From: Candidatus Gastranaerophilales bacterium
GTDB taxonomy: Bacteria > Cyanobacteriota > Vampirovibrionia > Gastranaerophilales > Gastranaerophilaceae
Reading direction: 5' to 3'
Length of the DNA stretch: 64,000 nucleotides
Assembly: GCA_944323035.1 (NCBI GenBank)
Contig: CALUQY010000005.1
Coordinates: forward strand, 1-64,000
Positions 6,200-58,503 of this stretch are shown here, one piece after another. The stretch's first letter is position 1. Each line of letters starts with the position of its first letter. The notes under the pieces are model-generated. The model was not told where the DNA came from. It did not search any database and worked only from the letters and a program-made list of their open reading frames with translations. A program made the position numbers and the translations under genes.

Positions 6200-6265
6200 A
6201 AGGATAGAAAGATGAAAAAACGAAGTAATGTAAGTATTATGACGGGGGGGGGGGGGGCCGGCTGA
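6200..6265 (+). pseudogene. Orphan pilin leader with 14-G tract, no pilin body
   Basis: A ribosome site (AAAGGATAGAAAG) is followed by ATG at 6212 and the codons MKKRSNVSIMT, then 14 G (6244-6257) and an immediate stop (TGA 6263-6265) inside a CCGGCTGAGCCGG palindrome. This is the same start module as at 46218 (MKKQRSVKIMT plus 14 G), but no pilin reading frame follows: after about 320 bp of repeats comes folE2. It is best read as the front end of a pilin locus that lost its body, or a spare leader cassette. Confidence 0.65.
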
Positions 6266-6590
6266 GCCGGTTCTACGAAGTGAATGCGTGCTCACGGACA
6301 ACGTAAAATTTTTTGTCACCCTGAACTTGATTCAGGGTCTGTCCAGCGATGCGAGCTATCGGTAACGCCTGTCAGATTCCGAAACGGTCTTGCTCGACTC
6401 GCGAAAAACGGCACCGCGAAAAGCGTGGTTTTCGCTTAGTGCCTCCGCTCGCTCGCGCAGTTCGGAATGACATTAAAGGAAATACTGTCATTGCGAGGGG
6501 TCGCAGACCGCGTGGCTATCCGGTTGAGGATACGGCGTCTTTGCCTGGATCGCCACAGGCTTCTCCCTCGTAATGACATAGAAAGCAACA
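6258..6590 (+). repeat. Cluster of palindromic repeats
   Basis: No gene is seen here. Units recognised in order: CCGGCTGAGCCGG palindrome (6258-6270); an inverted pair GTCACCCTGAAC / TTCAGGGT (6316-6340); a complex palindromic element on the minus strand (about 6380-6470) with a GAGCGAGCGGAG arm and a CGCGAGTCGAGCAAGA arm; and units of the type TCATTGCGAG...CGTGGC-ATCC (6488-6525, and in reverse 6548-6577). The same units recur in the pilin loci at 46-58 kb. Confidence 0.7.
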
Positions 6591-6604
6591 TTTGCGCTCC
6601 TTTC

Positions 6605-11954: not shown

Positions 11955-11983
11955 CTGACTAAAGAGAAAACATGTTACATAAT
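11955..11983 (+). promoter_or_regulatory. Pilin-family promoter (relic locus)
   Basis: CTGACT (11955-11960), 17 bp, CATAAT (11978-11983), same layout and spacer text as the promoters of the four full pilin loci. Confidence 0.6.
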
Positions 11984-12040
11984 GGAAGAGGCAATAAGTG
12001 AATAAGGCAAAGAGTCGTTATTGTCGAAAGGACGATATAA

Positions 12041-12151
12041 GTTAATATGTTAAAGAGTTAATAAGTTAATAAGGGATATGACCGAAATAGACGAAAATAA
12101 ACCCGGGTTAAATTCCATAATCCTAATTAACTAATTAACTAATTAACATAT
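12041..12151 (+). repeat. Long inverted repeat of tandem TTAAT units in the pilin-type leader
   Basis: 5' arm (12041-12080) made of repeats of about 8 bases containing AGTTAATA, 3' arm (12113-12151) of the complementary CTAATTAA repeats. They can pair into a hairpin. The same architecture lies at 49911-50027. Confidence 0.65.
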
Positions 12152-12169
12152 GTCTAGCGATGTGAGCTA

Positions 12170-12350
12170 TCGGTAACGTTGGACAGATCCCGAACTAAAT
12201 TCGGGATGACACCGGCAGAGCCGAGCGCAGAGCGGCATCCCCGACTGGTTGAACATGACTTTTTAACGCCCAACCAATTAGGAAGCCGGTTTGACCGCCG
12301 GTGGATTGCCACACTCCCGTTGGTCGTTCAATGACGCCGGCGGTCGAGCC
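12170..12350. repeat. Palindromic repeat cluster replacing the front of a pilin gene
   Basis: Holds a GATCCCGAAC / TTCGGGATG pair (12189-12210), a GGATTGCCAC...CAATGACG unit (12302-12338) and GCCGGTTTGACCGGC-like palindromes. It occupies the place where leader and pilin N-terminus would be. Confidence 0.6.
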
Positions 12351-12575
12351 GGTCTGCCTTGTATATCTGTTTCTAATACAAAAGCCGTTGCGTTTGAAAC
12401 TGTTAATGACGAATCTGTGTTAGGATTTTACAATCCGTGTGGTGTTTCAAAAGATGTTCTTAGCAATGGCAGTGATGCTTACGGGAAACACTGGCGATTA
12501 TTCGGATGGACTATTGGGCTGAAATACGAGCTGCCTAAAAGTGATTCTTATTTTATCCAGTGTGTAAAACGTTAA
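12350..12575 (+). pseudogene. Pilin-like gene relic
   Basis: Only fragments of the pilin body remain: SNTKAVAFETVNDESVLGFYNPC (compare AAFETANGESI...FYNP in the others) and the C-terminal YFIQCVKR. The FTMAE helix, the NNIC block and the DLNGxKGPN block are absent. The open frame runs back to 12291 but enters repeat DNA, so the gene is broken by a large internal deletion. The pilin-type promoter and leader hairpin are still upstream. A hairpin AAAGAC...GTCTTTTT at 12582-12604 may end the transcript. Confidence 0.75.
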
Positions 12576-46199: not shown

Positions 46200-46292
46200 G
46201 AAAGGATAGAAGAACTTATGAAAAAACAGAGAAGTGTAAAGATTATGACGGGGGGGGGGGGGGCCGGCCTCATCCGCCCGATTAGGAATTGA
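46200..46292 (+). other. Pilin leader module with 14-G tract, locus A
   Basis: Ribosome site AAAGGATAGAAG, ATG 46218, codons MKKQRSVKIMT, 14 G (46250-46263), stop TGA at 46290-46292 in the present register. The pilin frame downstream is also closed by TGA 46372-46374, so no change in G number can join this leader to the pilin. Confidence 0.7.
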
Positions 46293-46446
46293 GGACACCT
46301 TAGCGTCATCACGAGGAGCGAACGAAAGAGAGCGACGTGGTGATCCAGTCAAAAACGTAGCGTTCTCAAGTTGATTGCCACGCTCCCGTTGGTCGCTCGC
46401 AATGACACCGACTGAGTCGGTTCTATGTTTGGTCAACAGGCTGTCG
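46264..46446 (+). repeat. Repeat DNA between G-tract and pilin, locus A
   Basis: Contains a TCATCACGAGGAGCG...CGACGTGGTGATCC unit (46308-46346), its reverse ATTGCCACGCTCCCG...CAATGACACC (46374-46409) and a CCGACTGAGTCGG palindrome (46408-46420). From 46402 to 46604 the sequence is identical to 50346-50548 of locus B. Confidence 0.75.
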
Positions 46447-47415
46447 GTCAAGAAATGTGCATTTACCATGGCTGAAATATTATTATCCCTGACGATAATC
46501 GGTGTGGTGGCTGCGATAACGCTTCCGAGCCTAACCGGAAATATCAATGAACGCACATGGAATACGCAAAGAAAAGCCCTTTATGCGCGCTTTAGTCAGG
46601 CAATAGCGCTCATGCCTGCATTAAATGGCTACGGAACACTCACCGAAGGAAACTCTTCAGCTTCTGCTGTCGATACTGCTGCCGAAACTTTCATAACCAG
46701 CGGGCTTTCAAAAGTTTTAAAAATTAACAATATTTGTGACAGTGAACACCTTGAGGATTGCGGAATTACCTCTGAATTTATTAATTTAACAGGCAGCAAA
46801 ATGTCTATGCCTGCAATGTTATCTGTGCTTAATTCAAGAATGACAAATATGTCTTTTGTTGATATTTTAGGCGGAAATTATTCATATTCGCAACTGGATA
46901 GCAAATCTGCTGCTTTTGAAACCCAAAATGGAGAAAGTATTAATCTCTTTTATAACCCGCATTGCGTTTCAAATATGAACGAAACGAAATCATTCTATTC
47001 GCAGAATAAATTTTGCGTTAATATGATTTATGATTTGAATGGTTTGAAAGGCCCGAATACTGTCGGCAAAGATATCGGATTTATTAGTGTGTTCTACCCG
47101 ACGGACAGCGTAGTTGTTGCACCGAATGTGTTTTTCAGGAATAATGCAAAGATTGCAGCAGGTGTAGAAGGGCGCTATGACCAGCTTCTTAAACTTTGTA
47201 CTGCTCAGGATAAAGATTTAAGGCTGCCGAATATTGACGAAGCAAACTCCATGTTTATCAATTCGGAGTTAATAGGGCTTGATGGTAATTCCTGGGCACT
47301 GGCGACATCATCTAAGATAGATTCTTCTTACCATTGGGAGATGAATTTTTCTACAGGAATGCGTGCAGTTGTTGATGATGAGCATACAGGTGGCTCTCGT
47401 TGTATTGGCAGGTAA
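46375..47415 (+). CDS. Pilin-like protein, locus A
   Basis: The mature protein begins at the prepilin site KKCA/FTMAEILLSL (Phe+1, Glu+5) at about 46448, followed by the hydrophobic N-terminal helix, the NINERTWNTQRKALYARFSQ stretch and a variable C-terminal domain with NNIC, CVNMIYDLNGLKGPNTVGKD and a closing CIGR. It is likely cleaved by a prepilin peptidase and assembled in a type IV pilus or pseudopilus. The true start is unclear: the open frame begins with TTG 46375; an ATG at 46403 would give an 18-residue basic leader (MTPTESVLC...SVKKCA), but neither has a ribosome site. It is convergent with ruvB. Confidence 0.75.
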   Translation: MPRSRWSLAMTPTESVLCLVNRLSVKKCAFTMAEILLSLTIIGVVAAITLPSLTGNINERTWNTQRKALYARFSQAIALMPALNGYGTLTEGNSSASAVDTAAETFITSGLSKVLKINNICDSEHLEDCGITSEFINLTGSKMSMPAMLSVLNSRMTNMSFVDILGGNYSYSQLDSKSAAFETQNGESINLFYNPHCVSNMNETKSFYSQNKFCVNMIYDLNGLKGPNTVGKDIGFISVFYPTDSVVVAPNVFFRNNAKIAAGVEGRYDQLLKLCTAQDKDLRLPNIDEANSMFINSELIGLDGNSWALATSSKIDSSYHWEMNFSTGMRAVVDDEHTGGSRCIGR

Positions 47416-49768: not shown

Positions 49769-49869
49769 TTGACATAACTAAAAATATGGTACATAACCGC
49801 CGGTCAAGGCGGTTTCCTAATTAGACCCTTGCTATCGGTATTGACTAAAATTGAAAAATGGTAAATAAT
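49769..49869 (+). promoter_or_regulatory. Two tandem pilin-family promoters, locus B
   Basis: Promoter 1: TTGACA (49769-49774), 17 bp, CATAAC (49792-49797). Promoter 2: TTGACT (49841-49846), 17 bp, AATAAT (49864-49869). A short palindrome (CCGCCGGTCAAGGCGG, 49798-49813) and a further insert lie between, as if repeat DNA had entered a duplicated promoter. Confidence 0.6.
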
Positions 49870-50035: not shown

Positions 50036-50096
50036 GAAAGGATGGAAGAACTTATGAAAAACCGAAGAGTAAGCATTAATGCAGGGGGGGGGGGGG
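50036..50096 (+). other. Pilin leader module with 13-G tract, locus B
   Basis: AAAGGATGGAAG ribosome site, ATG 50054, codons MKNRRVSINA, 13 G (50084-50096). In this register it stops at a TGA soon after the tract. Loss of one G or gain of two would join it to the long open frame that runs into the pilin. Confidence 0.75.
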
Positions 50097-51353
50097 CCTC
50101 TCTTAACAGGCACAATTGAGGAGTCGCAAGCCTTTAATTGTCATGCTGAACTCCGCTCGCTCGCGCAATTCGGGATGACACTGGCCGAGCCAGTTCTACA
50201 ATTGGCACCGAGCGACTGTACGACGAAAGAAGTAAGCGTGAAGGCTGAAAAGTATTTGTCATTGCGAGCCGACGAATGTCGGCGTGGCAATCCAGTTGAG
50301 GTCGCCACGAGATTGACTGGATCGCCACGGGCTTCCGCCCTCGCGATGACACCGACTGAGTCGGTTCTATGTTTGGTCAACAGGCTGTCGGTCAAGAAAT
50401 GTGCATTTACCATGGCTGAAATATTATTATCCCTGACGATAATCGGTGTGGTGGCTGCGATAACGCTTCCGAGCCTAACCGGAAATATCAATGAACGCAC
50501 ATGGAATACGCAAAGAAAAGCCCTTTATGCGCGCTTTAGTCAGGCAATTGCCCTGATGCCGGCGTTGAATGGTTATGGAACTCTTACAGAGGATGCGTCA
50601 GGAAGCGTGATTGAAGACACTGCCGCAGAAACATTTGTAACAAACGGGCTTGCTAAAGTTCTTAAAATTAATAATATTTGTGACAGCGAACACCTGCCGG
50701 ATTGCGGACTTCCGGACAAAATTACACCTTTTGCCGGAACACAAATTGATTTCCCGCAGGATTTGGCTGAACTGAATCCGCAAAATACCAGTGTATATGT
50801 GACGGATGTTCCTTCCGGCGGGTATACCACCTGGTCTTATTCCCAAATTAACTCAAAAGCTGCCGGTTTCGAAACCGCAAACGGGGAAAGCATTGCGGTT
50901 TATTATAATCCAAGATGTACAACACTGCTTGCAGAAGCAAATGATGTTTATGCTCAGCAAAAAATGTGTGCAAATTTTGTATATGACCTTAATGGACGAA
51001 AAGGCCCGAATACATTTGGTAAGGATATTGGTGTGATTTCGGTGCTTTATCCGACTGACAGTCTTGTGGTTGCACCTATTCCGCATACGCAGGATGCATC
51101 TGGTGCGGTTACGCCTGACGCTATAAGCGGGGTTTGTAAAAATCAGGATGCTGAATACCGGATGCCTACAAAAGAAGAATTGGCTTCGTTATTCTTTAAT
51201 AAGAATATTATTGGTAATATGAATGCAGTAAGATACTGGTCATCTTCGCTGTCGTCGTCAATTGATGAAGCATGGTATACAAGTTTTATAACAGGTTTGA
51301 TGCGGCATGATCCTCATTGGCCTAATAATCCGGTACGCTGCGTAAAACGGTAA
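50079..51353 (+). CDS. Pilin-like protein with in-frame repeat hinge, locus B
   Basis: Open frame of 424 aa beginning at ATG 50079, a weak start at the edge of the G-tract. Residues 3-6 are Gly; residues 7 to about 108 are encoded by repeat DNA (hinge, no stop); then SVKKCA/FTMAEILLSL at about 50402 starts the pilin proper. The body has NINERTWNTQRKALYAR, NNICDSEHLPDCG, FVYDLNGRKGPNTFGKD and the closing VRCVKR. A prepilin leader over 100 residues long would be extraordinary. It is more likely that the leader ATG at 50054 and the pilin are parts of one gene split by an insertion, perhaps rejoined by frameshift. Confidence 0.72.
   Translation: MQGGGGPLLTGTIEESQAFNCHAELRSLAQFGMTLAEPVLQLAPSDCTTKEVSVKAEKYLSLRADECRRGNPVEVATRLTGSPRASALAMTPTESVLCLVNRLSVKKCAFTMAEILLSLTIIGVVAAITLPSLTGNINERTWNTQRKALYARFSQAIALMPALNGYGTLTEDASGSVIEDTAAETFVTNGLAKVLKINNICDSEHLPDCGLPDKITPFAGTQIDFPQDLAELNPQNTSVYVTDVPSGGYTTWSYSQINSKAAGFETANGESIAVYYNPRCTTLLAEANDVYAQQKMCANFVYDLNGRKGPNTFGKDIGVISVLYPTDSLVVAPIPHTQDASGAVTPDAISGVCKNQDAEYRMPTKEELASLFFNKNIIGNMNAVRYWSSSLSSSIDEAWYTSFITGLMRHDPHWPNNPVRCVKR
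50097..50395 (+). repeat. Repeat hinge between G-tract and pilin, locus B
   Basis: Units in order: CCTCTCTTAACAGGCAC just after the G-tract (shared with locus C), an inverted unit with AATTGTCAT...AATTCGGGATGACA (50136-50180), TCATTGCGAGCCGACGAATG / CGGCGTGGCAATCCAG (50260-50297), a reversed unit (50322-50353) and CCGACTGAGTCGG (50352-50364). It is entirely open in the pilin frame. Confidence 0.75.
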
Positions 51354-53313: not shown

Positions 53314-53375
53314 AGAAAGGATGGAAAGAATGAAAAACCGCAGGAATGTATTAACAAATGCAGGGGGGGGGGGGG
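53314..53375 (+). other. Pilin leader module with 13-G tract, locus C
   Basis: AAAGGATGGAAAG ribosome site, ATG 53330, codons MKNRRNVLTNA, 13 G (53363-53375), then a near stop. As at locus B, one G fewer or two more would put the ATG in frame with the pilin. Confidence 0.75.
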
Positions 53376-55127
53376 CCTCTCTTAACAGGCACAATTGAGG
53401 AGTCGAAAGCCTATAATTGTCATTCTGAACTCTGCTCGCTCGCGCAATTCGGGATGACACCGGCTGAGGCCGCAGAGCGGCATCCACAAAGCGACCCGAG
53501 TGGGAATTTAACGAAAGAAGTAAGCACGAAGGCCGAAAAGTATTTGTCATTGCGAGCCGACGAATGTCGGCGTGGCAATCCAGTCAAAAACGCCTCCCCC
53601 TCATGTCATTCCGAACTTGTTTCGGAATCTGTCCCACGTTACGAGCGGGTATCCAACGTTGGCCAGACCCTGAAACGAGTTCAGGGTGACAATATTTCGT
53701 CATTGCGAGCGGTCGGCGACCGCGCGGCAATCCATTCAACGTTGGTACTGCGCCTCGCGTTTTCTTGTTCGACTCGCGGAAAACGTGCCTACGTGCTTTC
53801 AGCACTCCGCACTCCGCTCGCTCACGCAAACGCTACCGCTCGCGCTTGCGGTCAAAAGCGTGCCGGCCAAGCCGGTCTTATAACGTCGCGTTCAGTCGCT
53901 ACAACGTATTGTGGATGTGCCTCAGGCACGCCGCGTCGCGCGCTCGACTCTACACAAGGCAAGCCTTGTTCTGTGGCTCTGCCCGGCTTGACCTTCACCA
54001 TGGCCGCCCGGCTGAGCCGCTCGACTGAGTCGAGAGCCATAAAGGGTTTATGTGCTTACGGACGACGAATAGCATTTACAATGGCCGCCCGGCTGAGCCG
54101 GTTCCATAATGGGTTGGTCGGCTTACGGTCAGCGTTCACAATGGCAGAGATATTATTATCCCTCACGATAATCGGTGTGGTTGCAGCGATAACGCTTCCG
54201 TCACTTACAGGCAACATTAATGAACGCACGTGGAACACGCAAAGAAAAGCACTTTATGCACGCTTCAGTCAGGCGATAGCCCTGATGCCCTCGTTAAATG
54301 GTTATGGAACTTATTCAGAAGAAACGGATTCTTCCGGTTCAATTTCTATAACAGATAATGTCGCGGAAACCTTTGTCACAGCAGGGCTTTCTAAAGTTCT
54401 AAAAATTAATAACATTTGTGATAGCGACCACATCCGGGATTGCGGTATAGCATCAAAAATTGTTTCACTAAAAGGCACTACTATCGAAACGGAAAATATT
54501 AAAGATCTACAGGGGTTAAATGGCAGCATGGTTGGAAGTATTGCTACTACTTCTACGATAAAGGCAGGCTATAACATAAATAATACAAAGGCTGCGGCCT
54601 TTGAAACTGCAAATGGTGAAAGTATTCTTGTCTATTATGTGCCTAATTGCGTTGGTAATATGAAGGAAACAACATTTACCGGTAATTCTGATACTGGCAG
54701 ATTTTATATTCAACAACGCGTATGTGCTAATTTTATCTTTGATTTGAACGGTAATAAAGGGCCGAACACTGTCGGCAAAGATATCGGGTTTATGACTGCG
54801 TTTTATCCTTATGATGCTCAATTAGCAGCACCATACCCTGCGATAAATTATGTAAACAATTTAGAAATTAATTCCGAAACTTTAACGACTGCACTGAAAT
54901 ATTGTAGTGAAACTTTTAATGGTGAATATCGTCTGGCGAAAATTGATGAATTGTCCTCTATGTTTGTAAATAATAAATTGATTGACGCTCAAAATATTGG
55001 TGGACATTTTGTTTCTTCAGATAAACAGCCGGAAAAATTAAATTCCATTTATCCGCGATATTCGCAATCTTTAACTAGCGGTGAACGCGAAGAAACCGGT
55101 GCTAGAGCGTGGTGTGTAAAACGCTAA
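53358..55127 (+). CDS. Pilin-like protein with very long in-frame repeat hinge, locus C
   Basis: 589-aa open frame beginning at ATG 53358. About 260 residues (Cys/Arg/Ser/Ala-rich, from repeat DNA) precede the prepilin site RSA/FTMAEILLSL at about 54137. The mature body carries NINERTWNTQRKALYARFSQ, NNICDSDHIRDCG, CANFIFDLNGNKGPNTVGKD and AWCVKR. That 770 bp of palindromic repeats stays open in exactly the pilin frame is unexpected by chance, as it is at locus B. Two copies of a PILIN-like TMAARLSR repeat occur within the hinge (around 54000 and 54080), with a third-order GCCGCCCGGCTGAGCC unit. Terminator not seen before the kinase gene. Confidence 0.7.
   Translation: MQGGGGPLLTGTIEESKAYNCHSELCSLAQFGMTPAEAAERHPQSDPSGNLTKEVSTKAEKYLSLRADECRRGNPVKNASPSCHSELVSESVPRYERVSNVGQTLKRVQGDNISSLRAVGDRAAIHSTLVLRLAFSCSTRGKRAYVLSALRTPLAHANATARACGQKRAGQAGLITSRSVATTYCGCASGTPRRALDSTQGKPCSVALPGLTFTMAARLSRSTESRAIKGLCAYGRRIAFTMAARLSRFHNGLVGLRSAFTMAEILLSLTIIGVVAAITLPSLTGNINERTWNTQRKALYARFSQAIALMPSLNGYGTYSEETDSSGSISITDNVAETFVTAGLSKVLKINNICDSDHIRDCGIASKIVSLKGTTIETENIKDLQGLNGSMVGSIATTSTIKAGYNINNTKAAAFETANGESILVYYVPNCVGNMKETTFTGNSDTGRFYIQQRVCANFIFDLNGNKGPNTVGKDIGFMTAFYPYDAQLAAPYPAINYVNNLEINSETLTTALKYCSETFNGEYRLAKIDELSSMFVNNKLIDAQNIGGHFVSSDKQPEKLNSIYPRYSQSLTSGEREETGARAWCVKR
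53376..54135 (+). repeat. Repeat hinge, locus C (about 760 bp)
   Basis: Starts like locus B (CCTCTCTTAACAGGCACAAT). Then TCATTGCGAGCCGACGAATG unit (53548-53585), TGTCATTCCGAAC / GTTTCGGAATC (53604-53632), CAGACCCTGAA / TTCAGGGTGACA (53666-53691), TCATTGCGAGCGGTCGGCGA unit (53699-53735), the complex element on the minus strand (53755-53830), and two GGCCGCCCGGCTGAGCC units (54001-54017, 54081-54098) each preceded by a degenerate TTCACCATGGC / TTTACAATGGC that mimics the pilin FTMA start. Confidence 0.75.
54136..54160 (+). other. Prepilin cleavage motif, locus C
   Basis: GCGTTCACAATGGCAGAG encodes A/FTMAE. The Ala codon marks the right-hand boundary of the inserted repeat DNA; the left boundary is the GCA (Ala) codon just before the G-tract at 53360. 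Confidence 0.6.
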
Positions 55128-57263: not shown

Positions 57264-57321
57264 AAAGAAAGGATGGAAAAATTATGAGAAATCGAAGTGT
57301 AACGAATTATGCAGGGGGGGG
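57264..57321 (+). other. Pilin leader module with 8-G tract, locus D
   Basis: AAAGAAAGGATGG ribosome site, ATG 57284, codons MRNRSVTNYA, 8 G (57314-57321). It reads to a TGA at 57362-57364 in the present register. One G more or two fewer would place it in the pilin frame, which is open from here on. Confidence 0.75.
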
Positions 57322-57535: not shown

Positions 57536-58503
57536 CATTTACGATGGCAGAAATATTACTGTCATTAACAATTATCGGTGTGGTTGCAGCGATAACGCTT
57601 CCGTCACTTACCGGAAACATAAACGAGCGCACCTGGAACACACAGCGCAAAGCTCTTTATGCAAGATTTTCGCAGGCCGTTGCTCTTATGCCTTCTCTAA
57701 ACGGTTTCGGTACACTGGAAGGCACTATTGGCAGCAGCGGCTCTCAATCAATTACAGAGGATAATGTTGCAGAAACTTTTGTGACTGCCGGTCTTTCTAA
57801 AGTTTTAAAAATAAATAATATTTGTGACAATGAACACTTGGCTGATTGTGGCATTCCTGAAAAAGTAACACCGCTATCGGGTACTGCAATATCATTTCCG
57901 GCGAAAATGTCGGAGTTAAACGAAAATAATATATCATTTACTCACCTTGCAGCCGCAGGAAGCAGTTATTCCACTATACAATTTGATAAACTGGATACCA
58001 AAGCTGCGGCTTTTGAAACGGCTAACGGTGAAAGTGTTGCTGTATTTTACAATCCGGTTTGTACTTCATCCATGGATGAATCAAATATGATTTTGATGCA
58101 GAATAAAATGTGTGCCAATTTTGTTTATGACTTGAACGGAACAAAGGGACCTAATACTTATGGCAAGGATGTCGGTGTAATAACGGTTTTTTACCCGACT
58201 GACAGTCTTGTAGTTTCGCCGCAGCCTTACCCGCAGGATGCAGCGTCCGGAACTTCAGCTTCTATTTCGGTATCAGGTGTTTGTAAAAATCTGGATTCTG
58301 AATACAGGCTGCCAACTAAAGAAGATTTAGCTTCACTGGTTATAAACAAAAATATAGTCGGAAACCTTAGTGCACCAAGGTATGTTTCAAGCTCGTTTAC
58401 CTCAAATGCGTCTAACATGTGGTATCTGCATGTTCCGACGATTGGCTGCTACCACATGGAATGGGGTGACGTAGATGTTTCTATCAGATGCGTTAAACGT
58501 TAG
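57361..58503 (+). CDS. Pilin-like protein with repeat hinge, locus D
   Basis: Open frame taken from GTG 57361; it extends back through the G-tract without a start of its own. Prepilin site QRCA/FTMAEILLSL at about 57535. The mature body carries NINERTWNTQRKALYARFSQ, NNICDNEHLADCG, FVYDLNGTKGPNTYGKD, SGVCKNLDSEYRLPTKED and the closing IRCVKR. Its C-terminal half is closest to locus B (TYGKDVGVITVFYPTDSLVV versus TFGKDIGVISVLYPTDSLVV). The natural leader is MRNRSVTNYA at 57284, out of frame by one. Its stop overlaps the convergent SDR gene by 11 bp. Confidence 0.74.
   Translation: MSETGRARNWTMPPLRLERECKEHSAEQNDLLSFCERRNSATIDNRCVEFDRRENQRCAFTMAEILLSLTIIGVVAAITLPSLTGNINERTWNTQRKALYARFSQAVALMPSLNGFGTLEGTIGSSGSQSITEDNVAETFVTAGLSKVLKINNICDNEHLADCGIPEKVTPLSGTAISFPAKMSELNENNISFTHLAAAGSSYSTIQFDKLDTKAAAFETANGESVAVFYNPVCTSSMDESNMILMQNKMCANFVYDLNGTKGPNTYGKDVGVITVFYPTDSLVVSPQPYPQDAASGTSASISVSGVCKNLDSEYRLPTKEDLASLVINKNIVGNLSAPRYVSSSFTSNASNMWYLHVPTIGCYHMEWGDVDVSIRCVKR

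Follow-up and report, generated by a model that had tools for sequence, protein, structure and literature searches.

Poly-G tracts in the leaders of a putative lectin-like pilin family: a probable contingency switch recurring across a genus of gut Gastranaerophilales

Locus B, a type IV pilin gene of the uncultured gut bacterium Candidatus Gastranaerophilus (a non-photosynthetic cousin of the cyanobacteria; genome of 1.94 Mb in 41 contigs), carries 13 Gs that set its leader and its pilin one G out of frame, and what reads as the same G-run switch precedes at least 60 sister pilins of the genome, making locus B one member of a genus-wide system that probably gives each of a large number of variable, lectin-like surface fibres its own on/off control. 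We consider it likely, though well short of certain, that the leader peptide of this type IV prepilin contains a slipped-strand contingency switch, namely the G tract. Translation would begin at a strong ribosome binding site (RBS) and the ATG at position 50054; a tract of 12 Gs (9 and 15 are equivalent) would carry the ribosome on through glycines, hinge and pilin to make a prepilin cleavable before FTMAEILL, and a tract of 13 would yield a 21-residue peptide and leave the pilin off. Slippage in replication would alter the tract by one G per step, lengths would vary within a population and expression with them, and, as each of at least 60 pilins would own a copy of the switch, each cell could display a different subset of lectin-like pilins at its surface. 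This reading is built on four observations, namely the anatomy of the loci, the conservation of their reading frame, their recurrence across the genus and the differences in tract length between species at matching loci. The window is the whole stretch of 64,000 nucleotides that was analysed, and coordinates refer to it unless another locus (L) is named; its genome is G000, the nearest relative G003, and the other sister species G001, G002, G004 (Ca. G. phascolarctosicola, koala), G005 and G006.

Locus B and the other tracts of the window

The features of locus B, read directly from the sequence or its translation, are these:

49769-49797, plus strand: candidate promoter TTGACA-N17-CATAAC, 5' of locus B
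50037-50045, plus strand: Shine-Dalgarno-like AAAGGATGG, 5' of ATG 50054
50054-50083, plus strand: prepilin leader MKNRRVSINA, from ATG to tract, with equivalents at 63 loci in the genome
50084-50096, plus strand: tract of 13 Gs, one more than the in-frame length of 12; OFF phase in the consensus
50097-50405, plus strand: hinge, 309 bp of dispersed repeat, open in the pilin frame
50117-50119, plus strand: TGA closing the out-of-frame product
50406-51353, plus strand: mature pilin FTMAEILL..., 315 aa, with a type IV N-terminus and a C-terminal C-type-lectin-like domain of Lcl_C type

Translation from ATG 50054, whose frame is shared by an ATG at 50042, yields MKNRRVSINAGGGGASLNRHN, a product of 21 residues (MKNRRVSINA-GGGG-ASLNRHN) that ends at the TGA, and the pilin frame, whose nearest 5' stop is at 50070-50072, has no further stop between 50073 and the one that ends at 51353. 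Deletion of one G merges leader through pilin into a single open reading frame of 432 aa. The first-pass annotation, which had described a leader ATG and a pilin one G out of frame, a pilin frame open from the tract through some 300 bp of repeats and a continuous protein regained by loss of one G, is thus borne out. Pseudogene decay at locus B was ruled out, the hinge and the pilin being intact. A pilin-frame start 5' of the tract was likewise ruled out for most leaders, where a TGA overlaps the start (ATGA) and more stops follow; an in-frame ATG (50079) does adjoin the tract of locus B, and its equivalent is absent from most paralogues and most leader types. Across the genome, 24 of 61 tract loci have a TTGACR-N17-YATAA no more than 450 bp from their leader ATG, and a motif AAAGGATRGAA lies 5' of nearly all leaders listed.

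The predicted protein has the N-terminus of a type IV pilin, which scores above the cutoff of TIGR02532 (18.4 against 16.3 bits) and below that of Pfam N_methyl (17.7 against 21.2 bits). An AlphaFold2 model (pLDDT 87.7, 42 sequences) consists of a long N-terminal helix (residues 3-50) and a large head, and its last 110 residues match the C-terminal domain of Legionella Lcl (8q4e; Z 12.2, 111 residues, rmsd 4.1), followed by Bd2740, invasin-type adhesins and C-type lectins at Z 6-9.5, values that under 8 are weak alone. The sequence match to Pfam Lcl_C stays below cutoff (29.8 against 34.9 bits), and Lcl_C is matched at E<=0.01 in 25 of 42 paralogues. Fold and family together suggest a lectin-like, adhesive pilin. 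Variability among paralogues is confined to one end, with a mean entropy of 0.03 bits over the first 43 residues and 2.38 bits over the last 65. Genes matching, over cutoff, one Peptidase_A24 (prepilin peptidase), one secretin and four T2SSE ATPases represent the pilus machinery in G000.

Words of nine Gs number 22 in the window against 0.08 expected from dinucleotide shuffles, an excess of about 275-fold; this comparison and the hinge stop counts given below rule out a chance origin of tracts and open hinges. Four further tracts share the leader pattern of locus B, and a pilin follows three of them:

6244-6257, plus strand: locus D, 14-G tract after leader MKKRSNVSIMT, then repeats, with no pilin 3' of it
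46250-46263, plus strand: locus A, 14-G tract after leader MKKQRSVKIMT (ATG 46218)
46264-46461: locus A hinge, containing in-frame stops
46462-47415, plus strand: locus A pilin
53363-53375, plus strand: locus C, 13-G tract, one G in excess
up to 54134: locus C hinge, 759 bp, fully open
54135-55127, plus strand: locus C pilin
57314-57321, plus strand: locus E, tract shortened to 8 Gs, after leader MRNRSVTNYA
57538-58503, plus strand: locus E pilin

The hinge of locus A is accepted as decayed, and the syntenic counterpart of locus E in the nearest species has 13 Gs. At locus D (6244-6600) the leader, 14-G tract and hinge repeats are flanked by unrelated genes, and its syntenic site in G003 (L270) also has a leader and a 14-G tract with no pilin within 1.3 kb. 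Another stretch, 11960-12575, lacks leader, tract and N-terminus but retains repeats of the promoter-like, 5' UTR and hinge kinds together with a small part of a C-terminus (AFETVNDESV...IQCVKR), and here decay into a pseudogene is the accepted reading.

Family, hinge and tract length across the genus

The locus B pilin has 107 matches in G000, a genome with 87 poly-G runs of at least 9. Within the stretches examined, which surround pilins and tracts, 91 pilin starts share a near-invariant N-terminus, and at 63 of them an RBS, an ATG, a leader and a tract, usually of 12-14 Gs, lie at most 1.3 kb upstream. Among 39 genomes searched (G000 and relatives), the family was found at E <= 1e-30 in seven, all of the same genus, and in none of the other genera. 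Each genome of five of the six sister species contains 95-132 poly-G runs, and every poly-G species sampled has both in-frame and out-of-frame loci. The sixth, G005, has no such runs, and its few family members carry short, ordinary leaders with no tract (for example MNNKLA-FTMAEILI); the same pilins occurring there in this plain form speak for a switch. G000 itself has a few family pilins with short, ordinary, tract-less leaders (MDLRVLKNA, MKNLA and MKNIFSKAFGA; L046 minus 15559 on contig C17, L061 minus 1294 on C27 and L006 minus 17291 on C1), which are possibly always on. One genome that carries the family and groups with the genus, JAMPIJ01 (G002), is a public metagenome-assembled genome titled Fusobacterium sp., a title that looks wrong.

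The reading frame of the hinge is strongly conserved and evidently under selection. In 59 hinges of G000, each at least 60 nt long and not independent of one another, as repeat copies are shared between them, stops number 7 in 5,810 codons of the pilin frame against 309 in 5,752 and 337 in 5,757 in the other frames, and the hinge is open in the pilin frame in 56 of 59 cases against 0 of 59. The hinges of G003 have no stops in 1,350 pilin-frame codons against 61 and 72 in the other frames, and the pattern is repeated in five species and many hinge types. Since the hinges are free of stops in the pilin frame only, there is little doubt that ribosomes do at times translate leader, hinge and pilin as the predicted fusion. 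The dispersed repeats that make up the hinges are located almost solely between tract and pilin of this one family, and the 15 copies away from pilin loci are too few for an informative stop test.

The hinge itself is an addition to the basic switch. In G004 and G002 the tract lies within a prepilin leader of normal length (for example MNKKNVLTCT-GGGG-RLLTA-FTMAEILL), 10-15 bp 5' of the mature pilin; in G000 and G003 up to several hundred bases of dispersed repeat separate the two, and the G003 counterpart of locus B (C-terminus 98% identical, also 13 Gs, a different leader) has a hinge of 15 bp. The hinge is therefore repeat DNA inserted later behind the tract in this lineage, and the basic switch is a tract in the leader. 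The stop-free hinge to which the first-pass annotation had drawn attention is real, but it does not belong to the switch proper.

Tract lengths were compared between G000 and G003 at syntenic pairs, each defined by roughly 700 bp of upstream flank that match best in both directions; since the flanks carry repeats, a number of low-identity pairs are perhaps mispaired, and weight is placed mainly on those with upstream identity of at least 92% or a conserved downstream flank. Length differs at 14 of 30 pairs with a pilin in both species and at 3 of the 6 pairs with identical leaders, as slippage predicts. L005 and L246 have 13 and 14 Gs with hinges 99% and pilins 97% identical, L003 and L247 have 13 and 14 with hinges 100% identical, and L022 and L267 have 13 and 12 behind an identical leader. 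Against a switch, several loci are of equal length in both species, among them locus B with 13 Gs in each. The variation seen is variation between species, not within a population. Tract length is not uniform between these species, then, and no in-frame stops were found in the hinges of relatives, two points on which the first-pass annotation had made its reading depend. Tracts of G004 contain NN gaps in many places (for example L083 936 and L089 336) and G006 has extra poly-G runs at contig ends, and tract lengths in these two assemblies therefore need care.

Exchange between loci and a retroelement

Several syntenic loci have kept their surroundings and changed the variable C-terminus of their pilin. 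Flanks are 99% (upstream) and 100% (downstream) identical between L022 and L267, whose C-termini share 49% identity; the corresponding values are 97%, 100% and 54% for L055 and L259, and 93%, 91% and 41% for L002 and L247. The opposite is seen at locus B, among others, where the C-terminus is kept (98%) and leader and hinge are replaced. Gene conversion through the constant N-terminus would explain both patterns.

A further source of variation is a diversity-generating retroelement (DGR) in G000, on contig C16:

L043 3257-7550, minus strand: diversity-generating retroelement
L043 3257-4531, minus strand: reverse transcriptase (RT)
L043 4516-4653, minus strand: template repeat (TR), 138 nt
L043 4927-5295, minus strand: bAvd (Pfam 45.3 bits, cutoff 40)
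L043 6528-6665, minus strand: variable repeat (VR), at the 3' end of a poly-G pilin of the locus B family

The template matches the last 46 codons of this neighbouring pilin, which has a poly-G leader one G too long, at 92%. The element also occurs in G003 (L256), in G004 (template L085, target L082, tens of kilobases apart) and in G005 (L101), and the differences between VR and TR fall at template adenines in 9 of 11 cases in G000, 10 of 11 in G003 and 9 of 10 in G004. Because G005 has the retroelement and no poly-G, the element is probably the older of the two in the genus. Variable positions of the pilins coincide with template adenine codons (mean entropy 3.51 against 1.72, p = 2.5e-4). 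A recent retroelement origin of all pilin C-termini was rejected, since aligned without gaps they reach no more than 45% identity to the template, and no fixation of third bases is seen (65% pyrimidine against 53% and 60%). No trace of recent editing from the C16 template is seen in the other pilins, and the comparisons support a single retroelement target per genome.

Phase bias, competing readings and precedents

For a tract of n Gs, let ON be the nearest shorter in-frame length and ON+1 one G too many. Loci that are in frame, ON+1 and other number 13, 43 and 2 in G000, where 74% are ON+1 (p = 8e-11 against equal thirds), and 10, 35 and 4 in G003 (p = 6e-8), p-values that are inflated by the common ancestry of the cassettes and come to 2e-9 and 3e-8 for distinct leader/hinge types only. 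The corresponding counts are 1, 10 and 0 in G006, where the excess is again strong, 3, 9 and 2 in G001, where the excess is weaker, and 10, 9 and 5 in G002 and 16, 15 and 8 in G004, neither of them significant. The excess tracks frame and not length: where ON is 11 most tracts have 12 Gs, where it is 12 most have 13, and where it is 13 they have 14 or 13 (dependence of length on frame class, p about 1e-14, G000 and G003 pooled). The pilin targeted by the retroelement, with 12 Gs in G000 and 15 in G003, is ON+1 in both. This pattern does not come out of a simple mutation-selection model of slippage, whether or not being ON carries a cost; such a cost drives lengths down and favours the other OFF phase. 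Its possible reasons are selection for an OFF state with a one-step return, recoding at the tract, or an effect of assembly, and we rank the first of these highest. A phase-variable ON/OFF switch, as the first-pass annotation proposed, is the best-supported reading, with lengths that vary between species and stop-free hinges in relatives, but its OFF states are not random, about three quarters of the loci in G000 and G003 being ON+1. Hinges of up to 759 bp also tell against it, as they imply very long prepilin leaders whose processing is assumed.

The likeliest rival is recoding, with the tract held one G long on purpose, RNA polymerase or ribosome slipping to bring a fraction into frame, and the DNA length serving as a set point for low expression. 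This would account for open hinges kept in out-of-frame genes, for the dominance of ON+1 in all three frame classes of G000 and G003 pooled (12 for 11, 13 for 12, 14 for 13) and for the ON+1 state of the retroelement target in both species (12 and 15 Gs); yet G002 and G004 lack the bias, in-frame loci occur and lengths change at matching loci, and we hold recoding to be unlikely. No more probable is its fuller form, in which ON+1 would be the working state and the tract a recoding site common to dozens of pilins, each leaking a small in-frame fraction, such that many lectin-like pilins would be made at a low level and DNA slippage, cassette exchange and the retroelement would add variety. A consensus artefact, the assembler adding one G to lengths that are mostly in frame, is less probable again: poly-G is difficult for sequencing and assembly alike, contigs break off in tracts, NN gaps interrupt those of the koala genome, and G counts in a Bifidobacterium breve reference differed from those measured (PMC9187656), but the usual slippage errors run both ways, and an error of exactly one G at true lengths of 11, 12 and 13, in some three quarters of loci and several independent assemblies, would be hard to produce.

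We give still less credence to the idea that most out-of-frame loci are silent donors, stored for gene conversion into a few expressed pilins as Neisseria pilS cassettes are into pilE. Leader/hinge modules and C-termini have indeed been swapped between loci (L022 and L267; locus B), and such exchange could act together with the switch; most loci, however, have their own RBS, leader and often promoter, donors would not need open hinges, and no single expression locus stands out. Internal initiation within the hinge, by which the pilin would be made whatever the tract, is highly improbable: of the 42 out-of-frame loci, 23 have an in-frame ATG at most 90 nt from FTMAE, such as MTPTESVLCLVNRLSVKKCA in locus B, but a Shine-Dalgarno-like motif accompanies it at only 3 of those 23, such an ATG is missing at 19 of 42, and hinges that are stop-free for hundreds of bases 5' of it would go unexplained.

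The proposed leader switch and the processes around it have separate precedents. Neisseria gonorrhoeae pilE and pilS combine a constant pilin N-terminus with a variable C-terminus and exchange cassettes between loci, a likeness in layout. Here the pilins are complete genes with their own starts and switches, and in place of one expression locus fed by promoterless, truncated cassettes there are 63 loci with an RBS, start and tract each. The palindromic elements of Rickettsia are dispersed repeats that protein genes tolerate in frame, as they do the hinge repeats here; the latter are found almost solely in one family, where they separate tract from pilin. In Campylobacter and Neisseria, poly-G contingency genes also have their tracts in the 5' coding sequence and switch the frame of surface genes; in C. 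jejuni, the 18-39 phase-variable genes (PMC6321876) cover many functions, whereas in Gastranaerophilus one family has most tracts and its phases are strongly biased. Closest is the sortase-dependent pilus of the gut commensal B. breve (bbr_0113, bbr_1889), for which ON/OFF switching by a G tract has been measured: the tract is intragenic, between the secretion signal and the rest of the pilin, its length decides whether two open reading frames are fused, and bbr_1889 is off at its reference length, G10, and on when one G is lost (PMC9187656). That system comprises two loci of sortase pili with measured switching; the present one, in another phylum, comprises at least 60 type IV pilin loci with the tract in the prepilin leader and a switch predicted from sequence. 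Among DGR target domains, DUF1566 is reported to be the most frequent (PMC6642488), and DGRs with DUF1566/Lcl_C targets have, like the one described here, an RT, an Avd, a template and a variable repeat, adenine-specific changes and a target of C-type-lectin fold; the difference lies in the target, one member of a poly-G pilin family.

Mechanism class, fold and retroelement type are each already known. What is undescribed, as far as the literature searched shows, is so large a number of loci within a single family, a tract placed in the prepilin leader, the way the mechanisms are combined, and the ON+1 bias. In that search, largely confined to papers outside subscription, no paper on phase variation in Gastranaerophilales was found, and the accessible part of the genus naming paper does not mention pili. 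If the switch reading is true, roughly 90 genes of a 1.9-Mb genome would be devoted to one family of surface fibres, most of them independently switched, which would allow very many surface states in a commensal lineage that is not a known pathogen, with three mechanisms of variation (switch, cassette exchange, and retroelement hypermutation at one locus) acting on one protein fold. The ON+1 bias makes it testable whether long poly-G tracts are replication switches only or recoding sites too. Annotation pipelines will miscall these pilin genes, most of which are out of frame in the consensus.

Leader and tract also occur outside the family. A different pilin family (FTLAEVLIALAIIG) is likewise preceded by the leader-poly-G module (L013 401, at G000:C3:76980, and L099 15472 in G004), and there 13 Gs are in frame in G000, G003 and G004. 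Poly-G runs of 13-19 at L047 1773, L037 392 and L060 67 stand in another context, AGTAGC or poly-A and then ATTGCTTAACAGGC, with no pilin behind.
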